From NCBI RefSeq assembly GCF_900105335.1, contig NZ_LT629770.1, positions 2,976,001 to 3,040,000 on the forward strand: 64,000 nt of DNA, written 5' to 3'. The stretch's first letter is position 1; each line of letters opens with the position of its first letter. Below, in pieces: positions 2,048-46,465 of the stretch. The position numbers and the translations under genes were made by a program. The notes beneath the pieces were generated by a model. The model was not told the origin of the DNA and did not search any database. It saw only the letters and a program-made list of their open reading frames with translations. This stretch comes from Microbacterium paraoxydans. GTDB taxonomy: Bacteria > Actinomycetota > Actinomycetes > Actinomycetales > Microbacteriaceae.

Positions 2048-2290
2048 GTCGGCTCCTTTGCTCGGGTGACGGCCGTGCGGACACGGCATCGACGACGAGG
2101 GGAATCGTCGATAGAGCGAGTCTGCTCGCCGCCTCGTCGCCACGCTTGACCGTGAGCGAAGGACGATGGTGCCACCGCGCACACCCCGCCGGCGGGCGTG
2201 CGCCCCCTCCGCCCCGCGGAGCAGGATGACCGGGACGACACCGCTGTCTCGTCGGCGCCGCGCGGCGCCGGGCCGCGGTCGGAGGATGCG

Positions 2291-3040: not shown

Positions 3041-3093
3041 CGCGCCCGCGTCCGGCCCCACCGCGCACGCGCGCAGAACACACAGGAGCACAC

Positions 3094-23818: not shown

Positions 23819-23841
23819 GGTTCTCCTCGGGTGGGACGGCG

Positions 23842-24801: not shown

Positions 24802-24809
24802 GATGCTCC

Positions 24810-25910
24810 TCAGAGGCTGGGGTCGATGACGGCCTTGACCTCATCGAGGTGGTGCATGTGGGCGATCTTCGCGGAGGCGCCGGCGAGCCCGACCGGGGCG
24901 CTGAACAGGTCGTCCCAGGGGAAGCGGTCGGCGAACGCCGTGAAGAAGTCGATCGCGCGGGCGTAGTCGGAGATGTCGCCGTTGAGCGAGCCGACCACCG
25001 TGAGCTCCTTGCCCATGATCGTGCTGAGGGCGAAGCCGTCTCCGGCGGGGCCGGTCGAGCCGACGATCGCGACGGTGCCGCGCTGGGCGGCCATGCCGAC
25101 GGCGTCCGGTCCGACGCTCGGTGCGCCCGCGAAGTCGAACACGTGGTCCGCTCCCTGGCCTCCGGTGAGCGCCAGGACCTGGTCGACGACGGGCCCGTCG
25201 CGGAAGTCGACGACGGCGTCGGCGCCGAAGCGGGCGGCGAGCTCCAGACGGGCCGCGGGAGCACCGACGGTGATGACCTGCCCGGCACCCGCGATCTTCG
25301 CGACTGCCGTGGCGAAGATGCCGAGGGCGCCGGAGCCCTGCACCACCACGCGGGAGCCGGGGCGGATGCGACCGGCCCGCTCGAACGCGCGCAGGACGGT
25401 CTTCGCGGCGCAGCCCGCCATGGAGGCCCAGGTGTCCTTGACGGCCGCCGGGAGCAGGAGCTTGGCGGCACCCGGGGTGACGTACGCGTACTCGGAGAGC
25501 CCAGCCGTCGCGAACGGCGGTACGTCGGCGCGCTGGAGGAAGCCGTAGCCGCGGCGGGAGCAGGCGACCGGTTCCCGCAGCACGACGCAGCCGTGGCACT
25601 CGCCGCAGGTGGACTCCGACCAGCCGATCCGGTCGCCGGGGGAGAGCGGGCGGCCGAGCGCGTCGCGGGTGTCGGGTCCGGTGGCCACGATCTCGCCGAC
25701 CATCTCGTGACCGAGGACCATGGGCAGCATTCCGGGGAACGACATCTTCCCCTCCCAGATCTCGATGTCCGTGCCGCACAGCGTGGTGCAGGCGATGCGG
25801 ACGAGGGCGGCGCCGGGTTCGATCTCGGCGGGCAGCGGGAGGTCCTGCAGGGTGAGCGGCTCGCCGTGCGCGGTGAGCACCGCGGCGCGGGTGGTGGTGG
25901 GGAGGGTCAT
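24810..25910 (-). CDS. Zinc-dependent medium-chain alcohol dehydrogenase
   Basis: A 366-residue MDR dehydrogenase. The catalytic zinc site is C45-GTD and H68-E69, and the structural zinc lobe is CGECHGC plus Cys117. The NAD-binding region is VVVQGSGALGIFATAVAKIAG near residue 190. The GTD-x2-IWEGKMSF and FATAGLSEYAYV stretches are typical of sorbitol/threonine-dehydrogenase-like branches. It would oxidise a secondary alcohol or polyol or reduce the matching ketone, NAD-dependent. ATG 25910 is the first possible start after the repeat element. Between it and the upstream SDR lies a GGGATC-type hairpin. Confidence 0.9.
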   Translation of the reverse strand: MTLPTTTRAAVLTAHGEPLTLQDLPLPAEIEPGAALVRIACTTLCGTDIEIWEGKMSFPGMLPMVLGHEMVGEIVATGPDTRDALGRPLSPGDRIGWSESTCGECHGCVVLREPVACSRRGYGFLQRADVPPFATAGLSEYAYVTPGAAKLLLPAAVKDTWASMAGCAAKTVLRAFERAGRIRPGSRVVVQGSGALGIFATAVAKIAGAGQVITVGAPAARLELAARFGADAVVDFRDGPVVDQVLALTGGQGADHVFDFAGAPSVGPDAVGMAAQRGTVAIVGSTGPAGDGFALSTIMGKELTVVGSLNGDISDYARAIDFFTAFADRFPWDDLFSAPVGLAGASAKIAHMHHLDEVKAVIDPSL

Positions 25911-25929
25911 GGTTCTCCAGTCGCGGGGC

Positions 25930-25996
25930 GGGTGGCGGGATCGAAGACGGTCCTCCGCGGAGCCCGGGAGGGGCGGAATCGATCCTGCACGGAGGG
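25930..25996. repeat. Single GGGATCGAAGACG hairpin within the operon
   Basis: GGCGGGATCGAAGACGGTCC at 25932 faces the inverted CGGAATCGATCCTGC ending near 25993, with the same layout as the GGGATCAGAAACG units at 11 and 28 kb. It lies between the SDR stop (26005) and the alcohol dehydrogenase start (25910). Confidence 0.6.
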
Positions 25997-26004
25997 GGAC
26001 GGGG

Positions 26005-26739
26005 TCAGACGAGGAGCTGGCCGCCGTCGACGGGGACCGAGACCCCGGTGATGTGGCTGGCGGCCTCGCTCGCGAGGAACAGCACGAGCGGGGTGACCTG
26101 GTCGATTTCGGCGATGGTGCCGAGCGGGATGCGCGACTCCCACGCGGCGCGGGCGTCCGGGTTGGAGGCGAAGTCGGCGGTCAGGGGCGTGAGCACGGGG
26201 CCGGGGGCGACGGCGTTGACCCGCACCCCGGAGCCGGCGAGTTCGATGGCCGCCGTCCGGGTGAGCGCGTCGACCGCGGCCTTCGTGGCCTCGTAGTGCC
26301 CGAGGCCGGGTGTGGGCTGCCGGGCGCCGATCGAGGAGATGTTGACGATGGTCCCGTGGCCGGCCGCGGCGAACAGCCTGCCGAAGACCCGCAGCATGAG
26401 GAACGTGCCGCGGACGTTGACGCGCAGGGCCGCATCGACCGCGTCGACCGCGACCTCCTGGAGTGTTCCCCCGCCGGCGACGACACCGGCGTTGTTGACG
26501 AGGACGTCGAGTCCGCCGGCCTCGCGGATCCGTTCGGCTGCCGCCTGCACCGACGCTTCGTCGCCGATGTCGAGGGGGAGGGCGGTGGCGCCGATCTCGG
26601 CGGCGACGGCTGCGGCGGCGACGTCGTCCACGTCGCCGATGAACACCTCGTCGCCCGCTGCGCGGAAGGCGGTGGCGATCCCGCGGCCGAGTCCGGACGC
26701 GCCTCCGGTGACCAGGATGCGACGGGGGGAAGCGGTCAT
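26005..26739 (-). CDS. SDR-family oxidoreductase, first gene of the minus-strand unit
   Basis: A 244-residue classical SDR. TGGASGLG is near residues 11-18, NNAG in DVLVNNAGVVAG, catalytic Ser in NISSIGA and YxxxK in GHYEATKAAV. The ending ITGVSVPVDGGQ is usual. ATG 26739 follows GTGAGGA; the frame before it is not protein-like. Its promoter region, shared with the divergent AKR gene, carries one of the four 16-bp palindromes. It heads the set SDR, ADH, AKR, two esterases and exporter, which look like steps in one pathway. Substrate unknown. Confidence 0.9.
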   Translation of the reverse strand: MTASPRRILVTGGASGLGRGIATAFRAAGDEVFIGDVDDVAAAAVAAEIGATALPLDIGDEASVQAAAERIREAGGLDVLVNNAGVVAGGGTLQEVAVDAVDAALRVNVRGTFLMLRVFGRLFAAAGHGTIVNISSIGARQPTPGLGHYEATKAAVDALTRTAAIELAGSGVRVNAVAPGPVLTPLTADFASNPDARAAWESRIPLGTIAEIDQVTPLVLFLASEAASHITGVSVPVDGGQLLV

Positions 26740-26784
26740 GTTCGTCCTCACTGACGGGTGTTCTGACGGGATGAGTCCGTTATA

Positions 26785-26800
26785 TTCTACAAACATAGAA
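26785..26800. promoter_or_regulatory. 16-bp regulon operator 1 (TTCTACAAACATAGAA)
   Basis: A near-perfect palindrome in the 100-base gap between the divergent SDR (start 26739) and AKR (start 26840) genes. It covers TAGAAT on the minus strand (26784-26789), a likely -10 box of the SDR unit. It fits the pattern TTCYAC-N4-RTAGAM shared with 28559-28574, 35238-35253 and 37696-37711. Confidence 0.75.
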
Positions 26801-26839
26801 AAACACAACCCCGTGCCCAGAGCCGGCGAAGGAGCCCCC

Positions 26840-27802
26840 ATGCCCGATGCGACATCCCCCCGCAAGCCGCTGTCTCCGGGAGGGGCGACGGTGCCGCCGC
26901 TCGCCCTCGGATCGTGGAACACCTGGGATCGCATGGAGTTCGACGACGCCGTGCAGCTGATCCACCGGGCGGTCGAGCTCGACGCCGGATTCTTCGACGT
27001 GGCGTACTACAACATGGGGCCGCACGCCGAGAACTCCCGGACCGACATCCTCTTCGGAGAGGCCTTCCGGGCGAGCGGGGTGGACCGTGCCGACGTCGTG
27101 CTGTGCGGCAAGCTCTGGCTGTGGGACTGGCCGAACCAGGGCTTCCGTGGGCAGATCGAGGAGTCGCTCGAGCGGGCGGGCCTCGACCGCTTCGACACCC
27201 TCGTGGTGGGGGACTATCTCGACGCCCCGGACATGCCGCGGCTCGTCGCCGACGTGAACGCCCTCCTCGCGGACGGCCTGGTCGACTCGTGGGGGATCAA
27301 CAACTGGCGGATCGCGGACACCAGGGCGGCGCTGGCCGAGGCGGACGCGCAGGGGATGATCGGCCCCTCGTTCGCGCAGCTCAAGTACGGCATCGCCCGA
27401 CGGGCCATGGCGGAGGGTGACGCGTACGGCCCGCTGTTCGCCGACGGAACCCTCGCGCTGCAGGCCTCGGACGTGTTCGAGGGCGGAATCCTCGCCACCG
27501 GACGGATGCCTCAGCGCAAGATCGGTGCCGATGTCGGAGGTATCCGCGAGCGGATCCTCGCCGTGTACCCCGAGGTCGCACGGGTCGCGGGGGAGTTCGG
27601 GGTCACCCCGGCCGCCCTCGGCATCGCCTTCTGTCTGGCGAACCCCGCGACGGCCACCGTGCTCTTCGGTGCCTCCCGCGTCGCGCAGCTCGAGGAGAAC
27701 CACGCCGCCCTCGCCCTCGCCCGCGACCACGGAGCCGAGGTCCGCGCCGCCCTCGCCGACTGCCGCGTCGACCACGCCGTCCGCCCCGACGGCACCTGGT
27801 GA
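26840..27802 (+). CDS. Aldo/keto-reductase-like protein lacking the catalytic His (copy B)
   Basis: A 320-residue AKR-fold protein. D53 and Y57 (FFDVAYYN) and K91 (CGKLW) hold the usual catalytic places, but Gly124 (VVGDY) stands where His normally lies, exactly as in the copy at 23842-24801. Near-identical blocks between the two point to a shared ancestor and a shared special chemistry. The NADPH end is GASRVAQLEENHAA. ATG 26840 has GGAG 5 bases upstream. The gene is divergent from the SDR unit and lies 39 bases from operator 1; an 870-base repeat region follows. Confidence 0.85.
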   Translation: MPDATSPRKPLSPGGATVPPLALGSWNTWDRMEFDDAVQLIHRAVELDAGFFDVAYYNMGPHAENSRTDILFGEAFRASGVDRADVVLCGKLWLWDWPNQGFRGQIEESLERAGLDRFDTLVVGDYLDAPDMPRLVADVNALLADGLVDSWGINNWRIADTRAALAEADAQGMIGPSFAQLKYGIARRAMAEGDAYGPLFADGTLALQASDVFEGGILATGRMPQRKIGADVGGIRERILAVYPEVARVAGEFGVTPAALGIAFCLANPATATVLFGASRVAQLEENHAALALARDHGAEVRAALADCRVDHAVRPDGTW

Positions 27803-27856
27803 CCCCGTACCTCCCACGCCCCGCCTCCCCCGCCCGCCTCCCCCGCCCTCCCGGCC

Positions 27857-28440
27857 GTCCGGGATCACTTCCGCACCTCTCACACGCCCCGCAGGCACGT
27901 TCCTGATCCCGCCTCGCGCGGCCCCGCGTCCCACTCGCCGCGCGGGATCACTTCCGCACCTCGCGCGCGCCCCGCGCGCACGTTTCTGATCCCGCACGGC
28001 GTGACGCTCTGCGCGCCGATTCGAAACCCCGCCGCGTGGGGAGGGCGTGCGGCCGGTTCTGATCCGGCTTCTGGCGGCGGCGGTATGTCAGTCGCCGGGC
28101 CCGCCGCTCGTGGGCAAGCGAACCGCTCTTCGGCGCCCCGGATCAGAAGTGCTCCTCGCCTCAGTGTGGGATCGGAAGTGCTCCCGCGCATGCGCCGGAT
28201 CAGAAGTGCTCGTCCTGCCCGCGTGGGAGGAGCGTTCTTGATCCCGGGAGGGTGGGTGTGGTGTCCCTCGGGGGCGGCGGCATAGTACGTCCGCGCCGTC
28301 ACTTGCTCCGGTGCGGGATGAAAAGGGTGCCTGGAAGGCGACGCGGAGGGGCGTTTCTGATCCGGCTGGCGGGGTGGGCGCAGTGGCGGGACCAGAAACG
28401 GGCCCTGTGGGGAGGGGAGAGGTGCGGAAGTGATCCCGGC
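27857..28440. repeat. Second GGGATC hairpin array, diverged units
   Basis: The gap 27803-28671 holds no convincing gene. It contains hairpin units at about 27860-27912 and 27941-27997 (GGGATCACTTCCGCACCT facing CGTTCCTGATCCCGC or CGTTTCTGATCCCGC), a cluster of three direct copies of GGATCAGAAGTGCTC (28140-28154, 28169-28183, 28197-28211) facing GAGCGTTCTTGATCCC, and units at about 28311-28367 and 28386-28440. They are the same family as the 11-kb array but less regular, with no clear 207-bp period. From 28471 to 28540 I see nothing specific; 28541-28671 is the promoter and leader of the binding-protein gene. Confidence 0.75.
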
Positions 28441-28467
28441 ACCGGCACCGGCACCGGCACCGGCACC
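28437..28467. repeat. CGGCAC hexamer tandem repeat (five units)
   Basis: CGGCAC is repeated five times without interruption at the edge of the last hairpin unit. It is a simple-sequence tract, probably a slippage product. Confidence 0.85.
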
Positions 28468-28558
28468 CGCGAGGCGGGGTGTGCGCGGGGGAGCAAGGCG
28501 CGTGCGCGCTGAGGCATCGGTCCGCGCGGCTGGGGTCGGAAACACGCTTGCGCTCTTT

Positions 28559-28574
28559 TTCCACGCATGTAGAC
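28559..28574. promoter_or_regulatory. 16-bp regulon operator 2 (TTCCACGCATGTAGAC) over the ABC importer promoter
   Basis: The right half-site overlaps TAGACT (28570-28575), which lies 16 bases after TTGCGC (28548-28553) and looks like the promoter of the binding-protein gene at 28672. A repressor bound here would cover the -10 box. Confidence 0.75.
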
Positions 28575-28671
28575 TAACCAGCACGACACATCGAAGTGGC
28601 GTCGGTCCCGGTCTCCGGTCAGCGGCTCTTCGAACCTTCTTCACCACCCCCTGCACCCGAGAGAAGGAACC

Positions 28672-30201
28672 ATGAAACGAATGCCCCTCGCGGTCGCCGC
28701 CGCCGTCGCCGCGACCCTCGCGCTCGCCGGCTGCAGCGGCGGCGGAACGCCCTCGCCGTCCGAGGGCGGTGGCGCCGAAGGCCCCGACGCCCTCAACATC
28801 GGCAACTTCCTCGACGTCACCTCGTGGGACCCGTCCCTCGCCGACATCGGCTTCGACGGCCCCTACCTGTCCGCGGTGTACGACGCCCTCATCGCCCTCG
28901 ACAGCGACGGCACCCCGATCCCGTCGCTCGCGACGAAGTGGACCGTGGCCGACGACGACCTCAGCATCGACCTCGACATCCGCACCGACGCCGTGTTCAG
29001 CGACGGCACCCCGGTCGACGCCGACGCCGTCGTCGCGAGCCTCGAGTACCTCAAGGCCGGCGCCAGGTCCGGTGAGGCCTACGTCAACGCGGAGGGGTTC
29101 GAGAAGGTCGACGACGACACCGTCCGCATCGCCCTCACGCAGCGCGACGACACGATCCTCTACCTGATGGGCCTCGGCCGCAGCTACGTCATGCCCCCGG
29201 CCTCCATCGAGGCGGGCACGCTCGGCAGCGATCCGGTCGGCTCCGGCCCCTATGTGCTCGACAGCGACACCAGCGTCGCGGGCGCCGAGTACCACTTCAC
29301 CAAGACCGAGGACCACTGGGACGCGAAGACATACCCGTTCGCCGAGCTCTCGATCTACCCGATCACCGACGCGACCGCCCGCCACAACGCGATGCTCAGC
29401 GGCCAGATCAACGTGCAGTACGGCGACGTGGCCAACCTCGACCAGGCCGAGCAGCAGGGCTGGAACACCGCCCAGCGGGTCTCCGGGTGGGCGGGCCTCG
29501 TCATCACCGACCACACCGGCGCGAAGAGCGAGCCCCTGGGCAAGCTCGAGGTGCGTCAGGCGCTGAACTACGCGTTCGACGGTGCGGCCGTCCTCGCGGC
29601 GGTCGGCAGCGGCGCGGGCGTGGCCACCAACCAGGTCTTCCCGGACGGCGGCGACATCAACGACCCCGAGCTCAACGACGCCTACGCGTTCAACATGGAC
29701 AAGGCGAAGGAGCTCCTGGCCGACGCCGGCTACCCGGACGGCTTCGACATCTCGATGCCGATGTCCCCGATCTTCGAGATGTGGAAGCCGTCGGCCGAGC
29801 AGGCCCTCAACGAGCTCGGCATCACCGTCACCTGGGACAACATGCAGATGCCGGACTACCAGCTCAACGCACCGAACTACCCGATGTTCATCTCCTTCCT
29901 CGCGATGGACGGCAACGACGTTGCCACCGTCTCTCGCCAGCTGACGAGCGTGCAGTGGTTCAACCCGGAGCCCGACTACGCGAAGAACGAGGTCATCGCC
30001 CCGCTCGTCGAGAAGGTGCAGACGGAGCGCGGCGACGCGCAGACCGCCGCCATCAAGGAGCTCAACGAGGCCCTCGTCGACCAGGCCTGGTGGTCGGTCT
30101 GGTACCAGGCGAACAACATCTACTACACGGCGCCCGGCATCCAGCTGCAGCCCGTCGTGGGGATGATGTTCCCGACGCTGCGGTACATCACGCAGGGCTG
30201 A
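28672..30201 (+). CDS. Family 5 (peptide/nickel type) ABC substrate-binding lipoprotein
   Basis: A 509-residue extracellular solute-binding protein of family 5 (DppA/OppA class). The signal sequence ends in lipobox LAGC (Cys near residue 21) followed by a Gly/Ser/Pro linker. Typical blocks are YDALIALDSDGTPIPSLATKW, VGSGPYVLDSD and VRQALNYAFDGAAVLAAV. Such proteins bind peptides, oligosaccharides, metal chelates or glycosides, so the ligand is open. ATG 28672 follows AGAAGGA. The promoter carries operator 2. It is followed by a perfect hairpin and then the permease genes. Confidence 0.92.
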   Translation: MKRMPLAVAAAVAATLALAGCSGGGTPSPSEGGGAEGPDALNIGNFLDVTSWDPSLADIGFDGPYLSAVYDALIALDSDGTPIPSLATKWTVADDDLSIDLDIRTDAVFSDGTPVDADAVVASLEYLKAGARSGEAYVNAEGFEKVDDDTVRIALTQRDDTILYLMGLGRSYVMPPASIEAGTLGSDPVGSGPYVLDSDTSVAGAEYHFTKTEDHWDAKTYPFAELSIYPITDATARHNAMLSGQINVQYGDVANLDQAEQQGWNTAQRVSGWAGLVITDHTGAKSEPLGKLEVRQALNYAFDGAAVLAAVGSGAGVATNQVFPDGGDINDPELNDAYAFNMDKAKELLADAGYPDGFDISMPMSPIFEMWKPSAEQALNELGITVTWDNMQMPDYQLNAPNYPMFISFLAMDGNDVATVSRQLTSVQWFNPEPDYAKNEVIAPLVEKVQTERGDAQTAAIKELNEALVDQAWWSVWYQANNIYYTAPGIQLQPVVGMMFPTLRYITQG

Positions 30202-30207
30202 ACGCCC

Positions 30208-30238
30208 GCCGGGGCGGTCGCCATGCGGCCGCCCCGGC
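30208..30238 (+). terminator. Perfect 10-bp hairpin between binding-protein and permease genes
   Basis: GCCGGGGCGG (30208-30217) pairs exactly with CCGCCCCGGC (30229-30238), loop 11. There is no U-run, so it more likely protects the upstream mRNA or lets only part of the transcripts continue. The livK-livH junction has a comparable hairpin. Confidence 0.6.
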
Positions 30239-30274
30239 ACCCCTTCCCCTCCTCCTCACCCTCGAGAGGCCCCC

Positions 30275-31216
30275 ATGCTCCTCTTCACGGCGAAGCGGGT
30301 GCTGTCCGGCATCCTCCTGCTCGTCGCGGTCTCGATCGGCACGTTCTTCCTCGCCCACCTCGCGATCAGCGACCCGACCGCCTCGCTCCTCGGGACCACG
30401 GCGAGTCCTGCGCAGCAGGAGGCGCTGGCGGCGAAGATCGGTCTCGACCGCCCCCTGATCGTGCAGTTCTGGGACTGGTTCTCCCACGCCGTGCTGCTCG
30501 ACTTCGGCGTCTCGTGGCGCAACTTCCAGCCGGTCGGCGCGCAGCTCGCGGTCAAGGTCCCCGTCACGCTCTCCGTGGTGACCCTCGCGACCCTCATCAC
30601 CGCGGTCATCGGCGTCGCGTTCGGCATGATCACCGGACTCCGCCCCGGCACCTGGTTCGACCGGATCATCAAGGGGATCTCCGTCGTCCTCTTCGCGCTC
30701 CCCGGGTTCTGGGTGAGCCTGGTCCTCGTCATGTGGCTGGCCGTGCAGCTCAAGTGGTTCCCGGCCGTGGGGTACGTCCCGCCGACACAGTCCGTCGACG
30801 GGTGGCTGCGCTCGATCACGCTGCCGGCGATCTCCCTCGCCCTGGGCGGCATCGTCGCCGTCTCGGAGCAGCTGCGCAATGCCGTGATCGCCCAGAGCCG
30901 CCAGGACTGGGTGCGCACCCTCCGCAGTCGCGGCCTGTCCGCCGCCCGGGTGAACCTGCACATCCTCCGCAACGCCTCGCCCGCCGCGCTCACGGTGATC
31001 GCCCTGATGTTTGTGGGCCTGCTCTCCGGGGCGATCGTGGTGGAGCAGATCTTCAGCCTCCCCGGTCTGGGGCAGCTCACGAACCAGTCGTCGCAGAACG
31101 GCGACATCCCCATGCTGCTCGGGATCACGGTGGTCTCCATCGTCTTCGTCGTCCTCATCAACCTCCTGCTCGACCTCGTCCTCGGCTGGATCAACCCGAA
31201 GGTGCGCGTCGCATGA
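30275..31216 (+). CDS. ABC permease, DppB type
   Basis: A 313-residue permease with six predicted membrane segments and the BPD_transp_1 core. The N-terminus AKRVLSGILLLVAVSIGTFFLAHLA and the EAA-like loop YVRTLRSRGLSAARV (here WVRTLRSRGLSAARVNLHILRN split across two stretches) are typical of DppB/OppB. It forms the channel with the permease half of the next gene. ATG 30275 follows GAGAGG. Its stop overlaps the next start (ATGA, 31213-31216). Confidence 0.9.
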   Translation: MLLFTAKRVLSGILLLVAVSIGTFFLAHLAISDPTASLLGTTASPAQQEALAAKIGLDRPLIVQFWDWFSHAVLLDFGVSWRNFQPVGAQLAVKVPVTLSVVTLATLITAVIGVAFGMITGLRPGTWFDRIIKGISVVLFALPGFWVSLVLVMWLAVQLKWFPAVGYVPPTQSVDGWLRSITLPAISLALGGIVAVSEQLRNAVIAQSRQDWVRTLRSRGLSAARVNLHILRNASPAALTVIALMFVGLLSGAIVVEQIFSLPGLGQLTNQSSQNGDIPMLLGITVVSIVFVVLINLLLDLVLGWINPKVRVA

Positions 31217-33009
31217 CCACGACTGACATCCGCGTCGCCTTCGACCGGGCCGCCCAGAAGCGCCGGTCGAGCCTGTTCCGACGCTTCCTCCGTCACCCCG
31301 GCGGCTACATTCCGCTCGCGATCTTCGTGCTCATCGTGCTCGTCGGGGTGTTCGCGCCGCTGCTGGCGCCGATGGACCCGAACCTCGTCGACCTCGCAGC
31401 CGCGAAGGCCCCGCCCTCGCCGGAGCACCTCCTCGGCGGCGACTCCACCGGGCGCGACATCCTCAGCCGCCTCATCTACGGGACGAGGACGACGCTGTGG
31501 GGTGCGCTCATCACGATCGTCACGGCGCTCGTCATCGGCGTCCCGTCGGGTGTCGCGGCCGGGTACTTCGGCGGCGTCTTCGACCGGGTCGCGACCTGGA
31601 TCAGCGACGCCCTCCAGTCGATCCCCGGGATGATCATCCTCCTCGTGGTCGCCGCCGGCAGTCGCAACAACTTCGAGCTGCTGATGGTCACCGTCGGCGT
31701 CTTCATGGTGCCGGGCTACTTCCGCATCGCGCGGTCGCAGACGCTCGCCGTCCGCGGCGAGGCGTACATCGATGCCGCCCGCGTGTCGGGGCTGTCGGAC
31801 GCGCGCATCATCTTCCGCCACGTCATCACGGCCGTCTACCCGCCGGTCATCATCCAGACCGCGCTCACGGCGGGCATCGCCATGGGCATGCAGGCGGGGC
31901 TCCAGTTCCTCGGCATCGGCGACTCGAACGTGCCGAGCTGGGGCGCGATGATGCTCGAGGGCTTCCGGCTCATGCTCACGTACCCGCTCATACTGCTGTG
32001 GCCCTCCGCCGCGCTCGGTCTCACGATCGCGGTCCTCGCGATCATGGGCTCCACGCTCGCCGAGCTCGTGCAGGTGCGCACGCCGCGGGCGGCCCGACGG
32101 CGGCGGCGCGGTGTGCTCGAGACCGCGGACGAGGTCGCCGCGCCTCCCGCCACGGGCAGCGTGCGTCATGAGGCTCCGGCGTCGGCCCTCCGCGTCGAGA
32201 ACCTGCACGTCGTGCACGCGACACCGACAGGGGAGACCGAGGTCGTGCACGGAGTGACGCTCGACGTCGCGCCAGGGGAGGTCGTCGGGATCGTCGGCGA
32301 GTCCGGGTCGGGCAAGTCGCAGACCGTGTTCTCGGTGCTCGACCTGCTCCCCGCGACCGGCCGGGCGACCGCCGACGCGATCTGGGTCGGCGGCGCGGAG
32401 GTCACCCACGCGACGCCGAAGGGGCGCCAGGCCCTGCTCGGGCGCACCATCGGCTATGTGCCGCAGGAGCCGATGAGCAATCTCGACCCCTCGTACACGA
32501 TCGGGCACCAGCTCATCGAGCCGCTGCGCCGGACGCACGGGCTGGGGAAGGCCGCCGCCCGGCAGCGCGCGCGGGAGGTGCTCCTGCGGGTCGGGCTGTC
32601 CGACCCCGATCGCGTGATGCGCAGCTACCCGCATCAGGTGTCCGGCGGCATGGCGCAGCGCGTGCTCATCGCCGGCGCGATCGCCGGTCGGCCGTCGCTC
32701 CTCGTCGCGGACGAGCCCACCACCGCCCTCGACGTGACCGTGCAGGCCGAGGTGCTCGAACTGCTGCGGGAGCTGCAGGCCGAGTACGGCATGGCGCTGC
32801 TCATCGTGACGCACAACTTCGGCGTCGTCGCCGACATCTGCGACCGCGTGATCGTCATGCGCGGCGGCGACATCGTGGAGTCGGGGCCCGTGGACGACCT
32901 CTTCGCCGCGCCCACCCAGGAGTACACGCGCGAGCTCATCGCCGCGTCGCTCGACGAAGCCGAGGGCCGCGCCGCGCTCGACGGCCGGCGGACGGAGGTC
33001 CCCGCATGA
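31213..33009 (+). CDS. Fused ABC permease-ATPase (DppC-DppD)
   Basis: A 598-residue fusion. Residues 1 to about 295 are a DppC-type permease (ARVSGLSDARIIFRHVITAV is the EAA-type loop). After a basic and acidic linker (RRRRRGVLETADEVAAPP), residues about 325-598 are a DppD-type ATPase with GESGSGKSQT (Walker A), SGGMAQRVLIAGA (signature) and LLVADEPTTALDVTV (Walker B). The frame is continuous. Separate genes are the rule for this importer class. It overlaps both neighbours by four bases. Confidence 0.9.
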   Translation: MTTTDIRVAFDRAAQKRRSSLFRRFLRHPGGYIPLAIFVLIVLVGVFAPLLAPMDPNLVDLAAAKAPPSPEHLLGGDSTGRDILSRLIYGTRTTLWGALITIVTALVIGVPSGVAAGYFGGVFDRVATWISDALQSIPGMIILLVVAAGSRNNFELLMVTVGVFMVPGYFRIARSQTLAVRGEAYIDAARVSGLSDARIIFRHVITAVYPPVIIQTALTAGIAMGMQAGLQFLGIGDSNVPSWGAMMLEGFRLMLTYPLILLWPSAALGLTIAVLAIMGSTLAELVQVRTPRAARRRRRGVLETADEVAAPPATGSVRHEAPASALRVENLHVVHATPTGETEVVHGVTLDVAPGEVVGIVGESGSGKSQTVFSVLDLLPATGRATADAIWVGGAEVTHATPKGRQALLGRTIGYVPQEPMSNLDPSYTIGHQLIEPLRRTHGLGKAAARQRAREVLLRVGLSDPDRVMRSYPHQVSGGMAQRVLIAGAIAGRPSLLVADEPTTALDVTVQAEVLELLRELQAEYGMALLIVTHNFGVVADICDRVIVMRGGDIVESGPVDDLFAAPTQEYTRELIAASLDEAEGRAALDGRRTEVPA

Positions 33010-33854
33010 ACACCGCTCCGGTGAACCCCCTGCTGCAGGTGGACGACCTCGTGGTCGAGTACGGCCGGGGTCGGCACGCCTTCCGCGCGCTGCACGGCGT
33101 CTCCCTCGACATCGCCCCCGGTGAGTGCCTCGGCCTCGTCGGCGAGTCCGGATCGGGCAAATCGACCCTCGGCAAGGCCATCCTCGGCCTCGCCCCGGTG
33201 ACGGCGGGGCGCATCCGCTTCGACGGCCGGGACATCGGCCGCCTCGGCGGCCGGGCCCGACGGGCGCTCGCCGACGACGTGCAGGTCGTGTTCCAGGACC
33301 CGTACGGCTCCCTCAATCCGGCACTGACCATCGGCGACATCCTCGCCGAGCCGTTGCTGACGACGGGCATCGGGGCGAAGGCGGCCGACGCGCGCGTGCG
33401 CGACATGCTCGACCGCGTGCGCCTGCCCGCCACGAGCATGGACCGGTACCCGAGCGAGTTCTCCGGCGGGCAGCGGCAGCGCATCGCGATCGCCCGCGCC
33501 CTGGTCCGCGGTCCGCGGCTGATCGTGTGCGACGAGCCGGTCAGCGCGCTCGATCTCACCACGCAGGCCACCATCCTCGACCTCTTCATCGAGCTGCAGC
33601 GCGACACCGGTGTGGCCTACCTGTTCGTGTCGCACGACCTCGGCGTCGTCCGGCGGGTCTGCCACCGGGTCGCGGTGATGTACCGGGGCGAGATCGTGGA
33701 GATCGGTGACGGGGAGCAGGTCACCCGCGCGCCACGCCACCCGTACGCCGAACGGCTGCGGCTGGCCTCGCCCGTCGCCGACCCAGCGTCCCAGCGGGAA
33801 CGCCGGGCGCAGTGGCTCGCTCTGCGGGAGGTGCCCGATGCGGCGGTACGGTAG
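33006..33854 (+). CDS. ABC ATPase, DppF/OppF type
   Basis: A 282-residue ATPase, the second nucleotide-binding subunit of the importer. Walker A is GESGSGKSTL near residue 45, signature FSGGQRQRIAIARAL, Walker B LIVCDEPVSALDLTT, and the C-terminal oligopeptide-transporter tail (RAPRHPYAERLRLA) is present. ATG 33006 overlaps the upstream stop by four bases. It completes a full importer set: binding protein, DppB, DppCD fusion and DppF. Confidence 0.92.
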   Translation: MNTAPVNPLLQVDDLVVEYGRGRHAFRALHGVSLDIAPGECLGLVGESGSGKSTLGKAILGLAPVTAGRIRFDGRDIGRLGGRARRALADDVQVVFQDPYGSLNPALTIGDILAEPLLTTGIGAKAADARVRDMLDRVRLPATSMDRYPSEFSGGQRQRIAIARALVRGPRLIVCDEPVSALDLTTQATILDLFIELQRDTGVAYLFVSHDLGVVRRVCHRVAVMYRGEIVEIGDGEQVTRAPRHPYAERLRLASPVADPASQRERRAQWLALREVPDAAVR

Positions 33855-33901
33855 CTCCAGGCCGGAACTCGCCACACCCCGGACTCGGCCGGAAGGACGC
33901 C

Positions 33902-34489
33902 ATGCCGAAGATCATCGACCACGACCAGCGGCGACGGGACATCGTCGAGGTGGCCAAGAGCATCATCCTGAAGGGTGGGTTCGAGGCGGCGACCATGCGC
34001 AGCATCGCCGCGGAGGCGGGCTTCGCGAACGGTGCGCTGAAGCACTACTTCCCCGGGAAGGAGAGCATCGTCGCGGCGACGTTCGAGACGATCCTGCAGC
34101 AGATGTCCGAGGGCGTGGAGGCCGCCGGGCAGGAACCGGTGGCGGCGGACGACGCGCTGCGCGGCTTCCTGCAGGCCACCGTGCCGCGCGACCCGGAGCA
34201 GATCGCCGCGGGCCGGGTGCTCCTGGCGCTGTGGGAGTACGCGATGGCGAACGAGTCGCTGGCCGAGCTCTACCGCGGACACCTGGGCTCCTGGCGAGCC
34301 TCGCTCATCGCGCGCATGGAGGCGGCCCGCGACGAGGGGTCGATCCGCGATCAGGACTACGGCCCGCTGGCGGACGAGTACATCTCCGCGGCGGTCGGTG
34401 CGACGGTCATCAACCTCATGTACCCGGACGGCGACCGCATTGCCGACTACGAGAACTACATCGACCGGTTCCTCGCGCGGCTGCGCTGA
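33902..34489 (+). CDS. TetR-family regulator, candidate regulator of the 16-bp operator regulon
   Basis: A 195-residue TetR-type protein. The HTH is in residues about 8-54 (AATMRSIAAEAGFANGALKHYFPGKESIVAATF read across the recognition helix). The C-terminal part resembles the TetR_C_6-type ligand domain found in BetI-like regulators (QIAAGRVLLALWEYAMANESLAELY). It is the only TetR gene within the 21.9-37.7 kb cluster, so it is the best candidate for binding the four TTCYAC-N4-RTAGAM palindromes, an inference. It lies 47 bases after the ATPase gene, probably in the same transcript. Confidence 0.88.
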   Translation: MPKIIDHDQRRRDIVEVAKSIILKGGFEAATMRSIAAEAGFANGALKHYFPGKESIVAATFETILQQMSEGVEAAGQEPVAADDALRGFLQATVPRDPEQIAAGRVLLALWEYAMANESLAELYRGHLGSWRASLIARMEAARDEGSIRDQDYGPLADEYISAAVGATVINLMYPDGDRIADYENYIDRFLARLR

Positions 34490-34523
34490 GGGCGAGGGGC
34501 CGGTCCCGAGAGGACGGCCCGTC

Positions 34524-35198
34524 ATGACCCTTCCCCCCGAACGACCCGTGGTGTTCCTGCACGGCCTCGCCTCGCGCGGCACGCAGGACTGGCCGGACAG
34601 CGAGTGGACGGCGGTGCTCGGCGATCGGCCGCGCCGGGTCCTCGATCTGCCGGCGCACGGCGACGCCCCCGGGCTCGGAGTCGTGCCGACCGCCGCGGTG
34701 CTCGACGCGCTCGCCGAAGCGATCGGACCGGACGAGGTCGACCTCGTCGGCTACTCGCTCGGCGCCCGGCTCGCCTGGGACCTCGCGCGGCACCCCGGCG
34801 TCGCGGTGCGGCGTCTCGTGCTGGGCGGCCTCAGCGCGGGGGAGCCCTTCGCGCTCGTCGACCTCTCCGCCGCGCGAGCCGCCATCGCCGGTGGACCGGC
34901 TCCCGTCGATCCGCTGACCGGGATGATCGTGCACATGGTGAGCCTGCCCGGCAACCGCCCGGACGATCTGCTCGACCTCATCGAGGGGCTCGCGACCGAG
35001 CCGTTCGCGCCCGAGGCGGGAGCGCCGGCGATGCCGGTGCTGCTCCTGGGCGGCGAGGACGACCCGATGGCCGCGGGCATCGACGAACTCGCCGCGCGGC
35101 TGCCGGACGTCCGGGTGCGGCGCGTCCCCGGCGATCACCTCGCGGCGCTGCACACCGCCGCGTTCCGCGACGCCGTGCGCGGGTTCCTCGCGGACTGA
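34524..35198 (+). CDS. Alpha/beta hydrolase
   Basis: A 224-residue alpha/beta hydrolase. The oxyanion segment is VVFLHGLASRG near residue 10, nucleophile Ser in VGYSLGARLAWDLA (near residue 76), acid Asp in LLGGEDDPMA and His in VPGDHLAALHT. Layout resembles the BioH/MhpC-like group without a clear lid. Start ATG 34524 follows GAGAGGA. It follows the TetR gene after 34 bases and may share its transcript. It would act on a small ester, thioester or C-C bond; substrate unknown. Confidence 0.85.
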   Translation: MTLPPERPVVFLHGLASRGTQDWPDSEWTAVLGDRPRRVLDLPAHGDAPGLGVVPTAAVLDALAEAIGPDEVDLVGYSLGARLAWDLARHPGVAVRRLVLGGLSAGEPFALVDLSAARAAIAGGPAPVDPLTGMIVHMVSLPGNRPDDLLDLIEGLATEPFAPEAGAPAMPVLLLGGEDDPMAAGIDELAARLPDVRVRRVPGDHLAALHTAAFRDAVRGFLAD

Positions 35199-35237
35199 CC
35201 CGCCCCATCGACGCCCGGCCCCCTCCTGTCGTTTATT

Positions 35238-35253
35238 TCCCACGTTTGTAGAC
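35238..35253. promoter_or_regulatory. 16-bp regulon operator 3 (TCCCACGTTTGTAGAC)
   Basis: It lies 19 bases upstream of ATG 35273. TAGACA at 35249-35254 may be the -10 box, again inside the right half-site. Confidence 0.7.
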
Positions 35254-35272
35254 ATACCGAAAGGCATCCGCC

Positions 35273-36262
35273 ATGACCGACACCCCCACCCCCGACGCCG
35301 CCCGCATCCTCGACATCGCCACCGGCTACATGGCCGCGAAGCAGCTCTTCCAGGCCAGCCGCATCGGGCTGTTCGCCGCCGTCGCCGCGGGCGCCGACAC
35401 GGCCGCGGCGCTCGCCGAGCGCTGCGGGGTGAGCGAGCGGATCGCCCGGCTGCTCGCCGACGCCCTCGCCGCGAAGGGTCTCCTCGTCCGGACGGAGGGG
35501 CGCTACGCCCTGGCTCCGGACGCCTCCGCCTACCTCACGGGGGAGGACGCGGTCATCGACCTCGCTCCGTTCCTCACGTTCCTCGACGAGATCAGCTACC
35601 CGCACTGGCTGCAGTTCGCGCACACGGTCGACACGACCGAGCCCGGCGACCTGCAGATGGACGACGCGCGGTGGGGCACGTTCATGGCCGGCGTCATGAC
35701 GTACAACCGCCTGCACGCGCAGGAGTTCGGCCGGCTCGTCGAGCTCGCCGGCGCGACCAAGGCCCTCGACTTCGGTGGTCTGTCCGCTGAGTTCGCCCTC
35801 GCCGTCATGGCGCGCAACCCCGAGCTGCACACGACGTTCGTCTACGCCCCGGGATTCGAGGACGGCGTGGCCGAGGCGGTCGAGGCGGCGGGCGTCGCCG
35901 ACCGGGCTGCCGTCGAGGTGGGGGACACGGCGACTGCGGCCCCCGAGGGCGCCTACGACGCGGTGTTCGCCAACCACGTCATCCACCGCTTCTCCGCGGA
36001 GGAGAACGCGCAGATCTTCCGCCGGCTCCGTGCCGCAGCGGTCGAGGGGGCGACGCTGACCGTGCTCGACTTCTTCCTCGACGACGAGGACGAGCAGCGC
36101 GCGCTGGACGCCCTGCACGCGGGGGAGTACCTCGTGATCGACGGCACCGTCGTGTACCCGGAGTCGCAGGTCCGTGGCTGGCTGACGGACGCCGGCTGGG
36201 CGGTGCGCGACACCGTCGCCCTGCCGGGGAGCCCGCGCGTGCTCCTGGCCACCGCGGTCTGA
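35273..36262 (+). CDS. Methyltransferase-like protein with degenerate SAM motif
   Basis: A 329-residue protein with the layout of plant-type O-methyltransferases: an N-terminal winged-helix dimerisation domain (residues about 8-95, ATGYMAAKQLFQASRIGLFAAV split over two helices, then CGVSERIARLLADALAAKG) and a C-terminal Rossmann domain. The glycine-rich SAM loop, usually DVGGGTG, reads DFGGLSAEF, so the third Gly and the last Gly are lost. The loss may mean altered SAM binding or a non-methylating role. YFL-type end and VFANHVIHRFSAEEN (the DxxxVLHH-like region) remain. ATG 35273 follows GAAAGG. Operator 3 controls it; a strong hairpin follows. Confidence 0.8.
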   Translation: MTDTPTPDAARILDIATGYMAAKQLFQASRIGLFAAVAAGADTAAALAERCGVSERIARLLADALAAKGLLVRTEGRYALAPDASAYLTGEDAVIDLAPFLTFLDEISYPHWLQFAHTVDTTEPGDLQMDDARWGTFMAGVMTYNRLHAQEFGRLVELAGATKALDFGGLSAEFALAVMARNPELHTTFVYAPGFEDGVAEAVEAAGVADRAAVEVGDTATAAPEGAYDAVFANHVIHRFSAEENAQIFRRLRAAAVEGATLTVLDFFLDDEDEQRALDALHAGEYLVIDGTVVYPESQVRGWLTDAGWAVRDTVALPGSPRVLLATAV

Positions 36263-36298
36263 CGACCGCGGTTCGAGACTGGTCCGAGGGGGATCAGA

Positions 36299-36330
36299 GG
36301 CGGGCGGCATGCGTGAACATGCCGCCCGCC
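36299..36330. terminator. Bidirectional terminator hairpin
   Basis: GGCGGGCGGCATG (36299-36311) pairs perfectly with CATGCCGCCCGCC (36318-36330), loop 6, followed by GTTTTCG on the plus strand. It lies between the convergent methyltransferase-like and amidohydrolase genes and should terminate both. Confidence 0.85.
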
Positions 36331-36349
36331 GTTTTCGTGGCTCGGGTGG

Positions 36350-37693
36350 TCAGTCGCGCGCGAACACCGTGCGGCCGTCGACGATGGTGCGCTCGACCCG
36401 AAGGTCGGCGAACGGGCGCCCCGGGGTGCACGGATCCTCATCGAGCACCGTGATGTCGGCGACCTTGCCGGGCTCGAGGGTGCCCTTCCAGCTCGCGGCG
36501 CCGTCCTGGATCGCGGCGTCGGCCGTCATCGTGCGCAGCAGCCGGCGCCGGGTCGCGGCGTCGTCCGCCCGGCCGTCGGCGGCGAGGAGGGCGAGGGAGG
36601 CATCGAGGCTGGGGCGCCAGTCCGGCGTGGCGATCGGGGCGTCGCTGGTCACGGTGGTCAGCGCCCCGGAGGAGAGCATCTCGGCCAGCGGCCACGCCGC
36701 GGCGACGCGGGCCTCGCCGAGCTGCACGGCCGCCCAGGAGTGCGTGTGCGCGGCGATGAGGGGCTGCACGGCGAAGCCGACGCCGAGGCGTTCCGCACGG
36801 CGGATCTGCGCGGGGGTCGCGAGGTCGCCGTGCACGATGTGGTGGGGTGCCGGCGGCGGGGGTGTCCGGCCGTGCCGTTCCAGTGCGGTGAGGAACTCCT
36901 CGATCGAGCGGTCGCCGGTGGCGTGCACCGCGATCTGGAGGCCGCGACTCGCGGCCAGCGCGATCATCTGCTGGAAGGCGCTGAGCGGATCCGCATCGCC
37001 GCGCGTGAGGAGGTGCCCGGTCGTCCCGTCGGGGTAGGGGGCCGACGTCCAGGCGGTGGCCATCGGCGGGATACCGTCGGCGAAGATCTTCACGCCGGGG
37101 ATCGCGAGCCAGCGGGGGTCGGTCGACGGGGGCGGCACCGGGAGTCCGGCGGCGAAGTCCTCCAGGGAGCTCTCGCCGTCGATCGTCCCGAACAGGCGCA
37201 GCAGCGTGACGCGCGAGGTCTGCGCGCCCTCCCGGTGCAGCTGCACGTACGCGTCGAGCATGTCGGTGCCGAAGCAGCCGGTCTCGCCGTCGTCCTCCCC
37301 GGGGCCGATGCCCGGCTCCGTGTAGCTGGTGATGCCGAACTCCGCGAGCAGTGCCCAGGCCCGGCGCAGGGCCGCGTGTCGTTCGTCGGCCGTGGCCACG
37401 AGGCGGCCGGTGGGCTGCTCCTCGGGTGGGGTGTCGGAGAAGAAGAGGTGCGGCCAGCGCGCGCCCAGCCAGGCGGCGTGGAGGTGGGCGTCGTTGAGGC
37501 CGGGGATCGCGGTGCGACCGTCCAGCTGCACGATCTCGCGGGCCGGGAGGGCTTCGGCGGCGGCGTCGGTGGCGACGATCACCCCGTCCCGGACGGCGAT
37601 CGCGGTGGCGACGGAATCGGTGGCGTCGACGGTGTGGATGCGGCCGCCGCGGAGAAGGAGGTCGGCGTCGTCGCCGAGGAGTGCGCTGCTCAT
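36350..37693 (-). CDS. YtcJ-type metal-dependent amidohydrolase
   Basis: A 447-residue amidohydrolase_3 family enzyme (YtcJ/NfdA-like), a metal-dependent hydrolase of amide, N-formyl or similar bonds. Features: beta-strand RGGRIHTVD, metal site GLNDAHLHA near residue 84, AVHATGDRS with metal-binding His near 275, HHIVHGDL near 305, and TSDAPI with the catalytic Asp near 362; the C-terminal GKVADITVLD and RTIVDGRTV are typical. No signal peptide. ATG 37693 lies 3 bases from operator 4, so repression should be tight. Its substrate may be the imported compound or a product of the esterases. Confidence 0.88.
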   Translation of the reverse strand: MSSALLGDDADLLLRGGRIHTVDATDSVATAIAVRDGVIVATDAAAEALPAREIVQLDGRTAIPGLNDAHLHAAWLGARWPHLFFSDTPPEEQPTGRLVATADERHAALRRAWALLAEFGITSYTEPGIGPGEDDGETGCFGTDMLDAYVQLHREGAQTSRVTLLRLFGTIDGESSLEDFAAGLPVPPPSTDPRWLAIPGVKIFADGIPPMATAWTSAPYPDGTTGHLLTRGDADPLSAFQQMIALAASRGLQIAVHATGDRSIEEFLTALERHGRTPPPPAPHHIVHGDLATPAQIRRAERLGVGFAVQPLIAAHTHSWAAVQLGEARVAAAWPLAEMLSSGALTTVTSDAPIATPDWRPSLDASLALLAADGRADDAATRRRLLRTMTADAAIQDGAASWKGTLEPGKVADITVLDEDPCTPGRPFADLRVERTIVDGRTVFARD

Positions 37694-37695
37694 TA

Positions 37696-37711
37696 TTCCA
37701 CCAGTGTAGAC
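37696..37711. promoter_or_regulatory. 16-bp regulon operator 4 (TTCCACCAGTGTAGAC)
   Basis: It begins two bases upstream of the amidohydrolase start codon and covers TACACT (minus strand, 37703-37708), the probable -10 box. Confidence 0.75.
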
Positions 37712-37857
37712 GTAAAACTCTCGCGCACGGGAGGCCACGCGCCGGCCGATTCGGCGCGTGGTTCCGCGGCTTGTACCCTGGAGTCATCCCCCGAACACCC
37801 CGGCAACCTCGTGCGCGCCGGCGACCTCGGCGCGCGCTCACACATGCAAGGACGCAG

Positions 37858-39300
37858 ATGAACGATTCCGCGGCACACCGCGACGAATGGACGGCGAGCG
37901 AAGAGCTGGCGGAGCGGATGATCCCGCTCATCGGGGCTCTCAAGCGCGAGCGCGACGTGGTCACCTCGTTGCACGGTCATCGCCTGCTCGGCCTCTCGGC
38001 CACCGGCGTCGTCGAGGTGCACGAGCGCGTGGCCCAGCTCGGACACGAGCGCCTGGCGGTCGAGGACAGCCTGGCGGTGCTCGAGGGCATCCACGCCCTG
38101 GCCCCCGGAGCCTCGTCGATCGACGTGGCCCGCCTCGTGGAAGGGCACGCCTCGAGTGGACGCCCGCTCGGGGAGTACCTGGCCGAGACCCTGGCCCCGG
38201 CCGTCGGCGCGGTCCCGGCACCGCCGACCGACGTCGTGCTCTACGGCTTCGGGCGCATCGGCCGCCTGCTGGCCCGCATCCTCATCGCGCACACCGGCGG
38301 GGGGAGCGGACTCCGGCTCCGCGCCATCGTCGTGCGCCGCGGTTCTGAGAACGACCTCGTCAAGCGTGCGTCGCTGCTGCTGCGCGACTCGGTGCATGGC
38401 CGCTTCGCGGGCTCGGTCACGGTGGACGAGGACGCCGAGCAGATCATCGCCAACGGCACGCGCATCCAGGTCATCTACTCCGACGACCCGGCGGCCGTCG
38501 ACTACACGGCCTACGGCATCGACGACGCGATCGTCGTCGACAACACCGGCCGCTGGCGCGACGAGGCCGGACTCTCCCAGCACCTCCGCGCGAAGGGCGT
38601 CGCCCGCGTGCTGCTGACCGCCCCCGGCAAGGGCCCGCTGAAGAACATCGTGCAGGGCATCAACGACGACACGATCACCGAGGAAGACCGCATCGTCTCC
38701 GCGGCGTCGTGCACGACCAACGCCATCACCCCGGTGCTCGCCGCGATCGACGAGGCCTACGGCGTCGTGAAGGGTCACGTCGAGACCGTGCACTCGTTCA
38801 CGAACGACCAGAACCTCATCGACAACTTCCACAAGGGCGACCGCCGCGGTCGCTCCGCCGTGCTGAACATGGTCATCACCGAGACCGGGGCGGCGAAGGC
38901 CGTGGCCAAGGCTCTGCCGCAGCTCGAGGGCAAGCTCACGGGCAGCGCGATCCGCGTCCCCACGCCGGACGTCTCGCTCGCGGTGCTGCACCTCACACTG
39001 GAGCGCCCCGCCACCAAGGACCAGGTCAACGACTACCTGCGCCGGGTCTCGCTGCACTCGAAGCTCCGGCAGCAGATCGACTACGTGGAGAGCCCGGAGG
39101 TGGTCTCCACGGACTTCGTCGGCTCGCACCGCGCGGGCATCGTCGATGGCCTGGCCACGATCGCCGACGAGGACACCCTCATCCTCTACGTCTGGTACGA
39201 CAACGAGTTCGGCTACTCCTGCCAGGTGATCCGGGTGCTGGAGACCATGGCGGGTTCGCACCCCGTCGTGCTCCCCGCCCGCCGCGAAGTCACCCTCTGA
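37858..39300 (+). CDS. gapB: Glyceraldehyde-3-phosphate dehydrogenase, long GapB type
   Basis: A 480-residue GAPDH. An N-terminal extension of about 120 residues precedes the NAD(P) domain (GFGRIGR at 130-136). The catalytic Cys285 is in SCTTN and the active-site His in VHSFTNDQN. The length and extension match the second GAPDH of Corynebacterium (GapB), which works mainly in the gluconeogenic direction; that role is an inference from similarity. ATG 37858 follows AAGGACG. TACCCT (37774-37779) may be the -10 box. Its neighbours ramB-like and pckG also belong to gluconeogenesis. Confidence 0.92.
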   Translation: MNDSAAHRDEWTASEELAERMIPLIGALKRERDVVTSLHGHRLLGLSATGVVEVHERVAQLGHERLAVEDSLAVLEGIHALAPGASSIDVARLVEGHASSGRPLGEYLAETLAPAVGAVPAPPTDVVLYGFGRIGRLLARILIAHTGGGSGLRLRAIVVRRGSENDLVKRASLLLRDSVHGRFAGSVTVDEDAEQIIANGTRIQVIYSDDPAAVDYTAYGIDDAIVVDNTGRWRDEAGLSQHLRAKGVARVLLTAPGKGPLKNIVQGINDDTITEEDRIVSAASCTTNAITPVLAAIDEAYGVVKGHVETVHSFTNDQNLIDNFHKGDRRGRSAVLNMVITETGAAKAVAKALPQLEGKLTGSAIRVPTPDVSLAVLHLTLERPATKDQVNDYLRRVSLHSKLRQQIDYVESPEVVSTDFVGSHRAGIVDGLATIADEDTLILYVWYDNEFGYSCQVIRVLETMAGSHPVVLPARREVTL

Positions 39301-46416: not shown

Positions 46417-46436
46417 GCGTCAATATTCGTTGACGC
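46417..46436. promoter_or_regulatory. 20-bp palindrome GCGTCAA-N6-TTGACGC, copy 1
   Basis: GCGTCAATATTCGTTGACGC. It contains GAATAT on the minus strand, a likely -10 box of the small HTH gene, and ends 13 bases before its start codon. Its centre is 29 bp from that of copy 2. Confidence 0.8.
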
Positions 46437-46445
46437 GGCGGGCCC

Positions 46446-46465
46446 GCGTCAAGAAGTGTTGACGC
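46446..46465. promoter_or_regulatory. 20-bp palindrome GCGTCAA-N6-TTGACGC, copy 2
   Basis: GCGTCAAGAAGTGTTGACGC has the same arms and spacing as copy 1. Its left arm supplies TTGACG on the minus strand, suitably placed as the -35 box of the HTH gene, and it lies about 60-80 bases upstream of the antitoxin start on the plus strand. Confidence 0.8.

Follow-up and report, generated by a model that had tools for sequence, protein, structure and literature searches.

The 64,000-nucleotide stretch of the Microbacterium paraoxydans genome analyzed here (contig NZ_LT629770.1, positions 2,976,001 to 3,040,000; hereafter the window) carries a gene cluster at 20653-37711 in whose promoter regions four related 16-base palindromes are found. 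These palindromes are very probably the operators of the TetR-family protein encoded at 33902-34489, which would act as an autoregulated local repressor of a putative uptake-and-breakdown cluster and would be released from the DNA by a ligand. On comparative genomic evidence the regulon is real, and this TetR protein has a high probability of being its regulator.

The four 16-mers, read directly from the window sequence, are located at 26785, 28559, 35238 and 37696, where the initial annotation had put them, and their distances of 2 to 97 bases from a start codon were confirmed on rechecking. None is assigned to a strand. Site 1 (TTCTACAAACATAGAA, 26785-26800) lies between the divergent short-chain dehydrogenase (SDR) operon and the gene of aldo/keto reductase 2, 45 bases from the start codon of the former (26739) and 39 bases from that of the latter (26840). 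Site 2 (TTCCACGCATGTAGAC, 28559-28574) is situated in the promoter region of the ABC-importer/TetR operon with a gap of 97 bases, site 3 (TCCCACGTTTGTAGAC, 35238-35253) in that of an O-methyltransferase-like gene with a gap of 19 bases, and site 4 (TTCCACCAGTGTAGAC, 37696-37711) 2 bases ahead of the start of a minus-strand amidohydrolase gene. The pattern TTCYAC-N4-RTAGAM is matched exactly by sites 1, 2 and 4, and site 3 is one mismatch off. Its description as palindromic holds for the consensus, as relatives yield the symmetric half-site [G/T]TCTAC, but each single site is an imperfect palindrome, with 5, 4, 3 and 4 of the six arm positions pairing in sites 1 to 4 as judged by eye.

Within the window, the pattern at up to two mismatches is only modestly enriched, with nine matches compared to a shuffle mean of 3.8 and 3 of 100 shuffles reaching nine. 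The whole genome of 3,552,213 bases was taken as a better test of chance than the window alone. The genome scan proposed in the initial annotation revealed exact matches at three places in these 3.55 Mb, every one inside this cluster, and none for the reversed control. At up to one mismatch the genome gives 12 matches (13 for the control), five of them corresponding to the four sites and seven to six other places. With a matrix derived from relatives, the four sites score 18.4 to 25.2 bits and the six other one-mismatch places 4.1 to 15.9 bits, at least 2.5 bits under the weakest of the four. The four sites are also the top four matrix matches in the window, the next reaching 15.1 bits, on a matrix that includes identical sequences from relatives.

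A survey of the genus was based on 366 genomes, mostly Microbacterium going by named relatives: 28 named loci with a TetR protein at 61-100% identity belong to Microbacterium (25), to an Actinomycetota bacterium (two) and to a Microbacteriaceae bacterium (one). A TetR match at an E value of 1e-20 or better occurs in 66 of the 366 genomes, 41 of them at 61% identity or more, and the exact site pattern in 88. All 41 TetR-bearing genomes (at least 61% identity) contain at least one exact site and 39 of them at least two (the exceptions are G186 and G334). Among the other 325 genomes, 47 have at least one exact site and two (G139 and G229) at least two. The co-occurrence was read by eye from two tables, a palindromic match on both strands being counted once; the counts cover all genomes and the individual places those up to G271. 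A Fisher test of two or more sites against the TetR gene gives 1.2e-47, which is descriptive and not an independent-sample probability since the genomes are related. Exact sites thus track the TetR gene through the genus. Beyond it, a search of 297 genomes from the order at an E value of 1e-35 or better recovered three genus members and one genome outside the genus (G433, 46% identity), and a search for the TetR gene among plasmids returned five records at no more than 35% identity. A separate palindrome, TTCTACCATGGTAGAM, was found at one place each in G156, G192, G194-G196 and G211, all without a close TetR, and also in the cluster-bearing G120; it is perhaps a look-alike palindrome of another regulator.

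Conservation of the individual promoters was followed in 39 of the 40 other genus clusters and in one relative with 44% TetR identity, the source window being excluded. The site 1 promoter was compared in 34 loci (30 exact, three with one and one with two mismatches), site 2 is exact in 37 of 37 loci, and site 4 is exact in 34 of 36 and one mismatch off in two. Site 3 is more variable. Across 39 loci the best match over a 170-base stretch was taken, such that weak matches elsewhere in the stretch carry no meaning; 30 loci match at up to two mismatches, and four (L073, L079, L080 and L102) match at three mismatches in the same place.

The association extends to other genera and to a second phylum; cluster and sites together are shared by many soil bacteria. 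A symmetrised matrix was built from 49 distinct genus sites and then run on the 52 loci outside the genus that are part of 80 named loci kept from 276 relatives. They stem from Streptomyces, Amycolatopsis, Saccharopolyspora, Saccharothrix, Actinokineospora, Leifsonia, Agromyces and others, and include five alphaproteobacteria (Cucumibacter, Maritalea, Devosia, Gellertiella and a Rhizobium bin). At a threshold of 12 bits, this genus-only matrix detects 177 sites; ten column-shuffled matrices average 7.6 and reach 20 at most, a control estimated from every fourth locus. The pattern is counted 92 times in the same loci and the reversed pattern five times, and the commonest half-sites are GTCTAC and TTCTAC. 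Of the 177 sites, 176 fall within the 330 bp that precede a homologue of a cluster gene, and the genes stand in rearranged order; those most often preceded are the genes for the SDR, aldo/keto reductase 2, the O-methyltransferase-like protein, the solute-binding protein, the amidohydrolase, hydrolase 3 and the alcohol dehydrogenase. At least one site before such a homologue is present in 50 of the 52 loci, at least two in 44 and at least three in 39. Since gene order differs strongly among groups, the operators moved along with their promoters. The concern that the motif might be common and scattered in unrelated promoters is not borne out, given the confinement of exact sites to the cluster, the genus co-occurrence and the placement of sites elsewhere.

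The product of 33902-34489 has the domain composition of a TetR protein, with an N-terminal helix-turn-helix domain (PF00440, 43.8 bits, cut-off 24) and a C-terminal ligand domain (PF13977, TetR_C_6, 45 bits, cut-off 27). In line with its designation as the only TetR gene of the cluster, no other regulator was found when each cluster protein was scanned with Pfam or NCBIfam. Residues 1-62 are nearly invariant across relatives down to 44% overall identity, and loci bearing sites encode the recognition helix AGFANGALKHYF or near variants, the sites occurring with the variants KHYF, KHFF and KRYF. Nine Streptomyces TetR proteins have the KRYF helix, and their sites contain GTCTAC and GTATAC halves. 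In G133 and G240 the TetR protein is only 42-44% identical, the helix reads GFANGALKHYF and the sites are kept. In G290 (40% identity) the helix is GFANGALKLYF and the sites are degenerate, such as TTCTACAACAGGAGAA. Six paralogous TetR loci have the helix GFAHGALQRYF or GFAHGALARYF; three are without a site at 12 bits and three have one, and in the latter three the genomes also carry the cluster, as does, at another place, the genome of the site-less L200. The incomplete genome G299 contains sites, and no TetR gene was found in it. In contrast to the DNA-binding domain, residues ~63-100 fall into two ligand-domain classes of the MSEGVQAAG and HDTWLQES types (L094-L103 versus L069-L093), and from the sequences it looks as if part of the domain had been exchanged.

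A plausible mechanism can be outlined from the position of the sites. Sites in or over a core promoter, including the regulator's own, are the layout of steric repression and autoregulation typical of TetR proteins. Two candidate promoters were recognized by eye, with flanks that are alike in most loci. The putative SDR-operon promoter (26779-26808, minus strand) consists of a -35 TTGTGT (26808-26803), an 18-bp spacer and a -10 TATAAC (26784-26779), and site 1 takes up most of this spacer. In the putative importer-operon promoter (28548-28575, plus strand), with -35 TTGCGC (28548-28553), a 16-bp spacer and -10 TAGACT (28570-28575), site 2 overlies part of the spacer and the -10 hexamer. An operator precedes each transcription unit, the regulator's own included, when operons are delimited by gene spacing, an arrangement characteristic of a local autoregulated TetR regulon. 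A TetR dimer would bind [G/T]TCTAC-N4-GTAGA[A/C] in or over the core promoters of the four regions. From site 1 it would control the divergent operon for the SDR, alcohol dehydrogenase, aldo/keto reductase 1, two hydrolases and an MFS transporter as well as the aldo/keto reductase 2 gene; from site 2, the importer-TetR-hydrolase operon, by which the repressor would limit its own synthesis; from site 3, the O-methyltransferase-like gene; and from site 4, the amidohydrolase gene. The ligand is probably either the substrate brought in by the importer or a product of its breakdown. It would bind the variable C-terminal domain, and the ligand-bound dimer would leave the DNA, turning on the entire uptake-and-breakdown set.

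Several observations weigh against this interpretation. Because the TetR gene moves with the cluster, co-occurrence alone cannot tell the TetR protein from another cluster-linked factor. The 80 named loci were found by patterns including the helix word EAGFANGA, a sampling that favors relatives of the same specificity, and the gene starts outside the genus are tblastn estimates. Five of the 39 loci compared lack site 3 (L082-L085 and L101; the two-mismatch match in L101 lies at the end of the preceding gene). Three loci have a helix of the expected kind and no site: the short 4.5-kb contig L154, one KHYF locus (the 5-kb contig L196) and L147, whose TetR is similar (AGYANGALKRYF) and whose 16.5 kb include neither a site nor the cluster. 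L147 and L154 are the two site-less loci outside the genus. The -10 boxes given in the initial annotation are putative: the hexamers can be read by eye, but a sigma-70 consensus scan of 26600-38000 yielded no promoter. The same scan gave two terminator-like sites against 2.0 expected, and one such chance-level stem (26825-26806) overlies the proposed -35 of the SDR operon.

Among the alternatives, a TetR protein acting here as an activator or mixed regulator instead of a repressor is improbable. Some family members do activate, FasR being termed a TetR-like activator in the abstract of PMC7382501, but operators between or over the proposed core promoter hexamers should make a bound protein block the polymerase. 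A marginally lower probability is attributed to a dimeric regulator encoded outside the cluster that would bind the palindromes, with the TetR gene as a mere operon passenger. Such a regulator would fit a motif that has the form of a generic dimer operator; it fits poorly with the fact that, within the genus, genomes with at least two exact sites nearly always have the TetR gene, with the joint recurrence of sites and TetR gene in other genera and a second phylum, and with the one relative that deviates in both helix and sites. A role as promoter element, such as one recognized by an alternative sigma factor, deserves hardly any credence although the sites fall at or over hexamers readable as -10 boxes. 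The consensus is symmetric, site 4 has the opposite orientation to its gene from that of sites 2 and 3, start codons lie anywhere from 2 to 97 bases away, and exact copies are restricted to one cluster in the genome.

The proposed TetR-operator system can be compared with known ones. KstR, which governs a lipid-degradation regulon in mycobacteria, is likewise a repressor of the TetR type that has a single palindromic operator upstream of many catabolic genes of the same function and also in its own promoter, as far as the relevant passages of PMC1995591 describe it. The KstR sites given there are of the kind ATTAGAACGTGTTCTAGTCG, compared to the arms TTCTAC/GTAGAA found here; the present TetR reaches 39.3 bits with the KstR model (cut-off 280), which places it outside KstR, and its regulon is local in the genome, set against that of KstR. 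The choline-binding repressor BetI shares the Pfam C-terminal domain, TetR_C_6 being described as BetI-type. The scores of 60.4 and 60.2 bits with the BetI models stay below the cut-offs of 118 and 201.3, and unlike in BetI systems no choline gene is present among the scanned cluster proteins. The best structure match by sequence is the solved TetR protein 2nx4 (117 bits), with the helix GYTNGALSHYF compared to GFANGALKHYF here. Local TetR regulons are thus a known kind, and literature searches on the TetR protein, the operator arms and the gene content, which were non-exhaustive as several covered only a portion of their hits, retrieved no description of this operator or gene set. In the portions of PMC1995591 and PMC7382501 where the arm letters appear, they belong to primers or other operators.

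Through this assignment, genes with only generic names become a single regulated unit, for which the operator is defined and a candidate repressor can be named. With the operator defined, the substrate can be sought directly through a reporter on any of the four promoters or through ligand binding to the TetR protein. As the unit is common to two phyla, with gene order reshuffled and operators kept, it also offers a natural data set for the co-change of helix and operator.

The left end of the cluster lies at 20653 and not at about 21.9 kb as initially annotated, because the MFS gene, syntenic in relatives, overlaps the preceding hydrolase gene. On the minus strand, closely packed genes form the proposed SDR operon. 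Its first gene encodes the SDR (26005-26739; NCBIfam PRK07231, 201.4 bits, cut-off 215) and is followed by those for a zinc-dependent alcohol dehydrogenase (24810-25910; Pfam ADH_N and ADH_zinc_N), aldo/keto reductase 1 (23842-24801; Pfam Aldo_ket_red), two alpha/beta hydrolases of the hormone-sensitive-lipase type, namely hydrolase 2 (22847-23818) and hydrolase 1 (21867-22850; NCBIfam LipP1, 192.8 bits, under the cut-off of 350), and, as last gene, the MFS transporter (20653-21870; Pfam MFS_1, syntenic in the genus). On the plus strand, aldo/keto reductase 2 (26840-27802; Pfam) is followed by the importer operon with the ABC solute-binding protein SBP_bac_5 (28672-30201; Pfam), permease 1 (30275-31216; best NCBIfam match Opp2B, 215 bits, under the cut-off of 350), permease 2 fused to ATPase 1 (31213-33009) and ATPase 2 (33006-33854; NCBIfam), then by the predicted TetR repressor gene (33902-34489), identified by its Pfam domains TetR_N and TetR_C_6, its near-invariant DNA-binding domain and its co-occurrence with the sites, and by alpha/beta hydrolase 3 (34524-35198; Pfam Abhydrolase_1/6). 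The O-methyltransferase-like gene (35273-36262, plus strand; Pfam Methyltransf_2) and the amidohydrolase gene (36350-37693, minus strand; Pfam Amidohydro_3) complete the cluster. A GAPDH gene comes next at 37861 and was left outside.

In the 598-residue permease-ATPase fusion, NCBIfam permease models match residues 14-289 and ATPase models residues 324-597, and matches to the fusion occur in other genera too. Motif I for S-adenosylmethionine (SAM) binding normally reads GGGxG or similar. The O-methyltransferase-like protein has LDFGGLS at this spot, where aligned relatives have GGL or GGF, and to judge from this altered motif, any use it makes of SAM may be unconventional. In both aldo/keto reductases the histidine of the catalytic tetrad is seemingly absent (VVGDYLDAPD compared to CHRPD in 8hw0), as deduced from an alignment for 23842-24801 and by eye for 26840-27802. 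We tentatively entertain, as a possibility less likely than not, that behind the operator stands a breakdown pathway new to the literature and common to actinomycetes and alphaproteobacteria, in which the LDxGGLx methyltransferase-fold protein and the two aldo/keto reductases that seem to lack the catalytic histidine would carry out unusual chemistry on a compound not so far connected with these genes.

Compatible with the TetR regulon, although unlikely in this specific form, is the idea that the cluster imports and degrades an esterified, sometimes sulfated, hydroxylated aromatic compound (phenylethanoid-like), with this compound or its alcohol or ketone as ligand. An importer, three hydrolases and four oxidoreductases in the cluster would suit such a pathway. 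The importer belongs to the peptide/nickel type, whose members carry many ligands. Arylsulfatase genes found in 7 of 92 loci (six of the genus and one Agromyces), either at the cluster or next to it, point in the same direction, as do another sulfatase in Cucumibacter, an aldehyde dehydrogenase beside the TetR gene in 8 of 10 Streptomyces loci (L167 is without it and L154 too short to tell), whose best NCBIfam match is phenylacetaldehyde dehydrogenase (516 bits, under the cut-off of 850), and HpaE- and HpaD-like genes, named by eye, a few kb past the TetR gene in L137. Most such genes are neighbors, however, with only putative membership in the regulon, the Streptomyces arrangement may reflect one ancestral event, and the solved relatives found are distant; the arylsulfatase and aldehyde dehydrogenase neighbors are hints only.

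Solved structures were searched for six enzymes and the binding protein, besides the TetR protein. Even the nearest relatives are distant. For hydrolase 2 they are lipases (221-223 bits; 7b4q at 223) and heroin esterase (1lzk, 191 bits). The O-methyltransferase-like protein comes closest to RedM with 81 bits, the amidohydrolase to 3icj with 65 bits, the alcohol dehydrogenase to 1vj0 with 130 bits, and both aldo/keto reductases to AKR6D1 with 82-87 bits. A lead to the deoxynivalenol reductases of Devosia, which arose via AKR6D1, was dropped, 82-87 bits being too distant for substrate assignment.

Some further features were noted beside the subjects treated above. Arylsulfatase genes lie beside or inside the cluster in L088 (6757-9084), L095, L099, L092, L105, L108 and L188, with best NCBIfam matches under the curated cut-offs. 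The Streptomyces loci with an aldehyde dehydrogenase beside the TetR gene are L137, L148, L152, L156, L159, L161, L163 and L166. In L179 (Sphaerimonospora), two phosphotriesterase-related proteins are encoded between two hydrolase genes (1455-3538). Elsewhere in the window, a pair of GTCAA-N6-TTGAC palindromes 29 bases apart, at 46419-46434 (GTCAATATTCGTTGAC) and 46448-46463 (GTCAAGAAGTGTTGAC), constitutes a different operator-like pair. A dispersed intergenic repeat at 27840-28440 and 11004-11503 is composed of GGATCAGAARYG modules that occur in both orientations, and a 73-base unit recurs at a spacing of 83 bases (81% identity). The module has 15 matches in the window at up to one mismatch, compared to 0.8 expected, and GGATCAGAARCGNNC matches exactly 11 times at about eight places of the genome, compared to none for the control.

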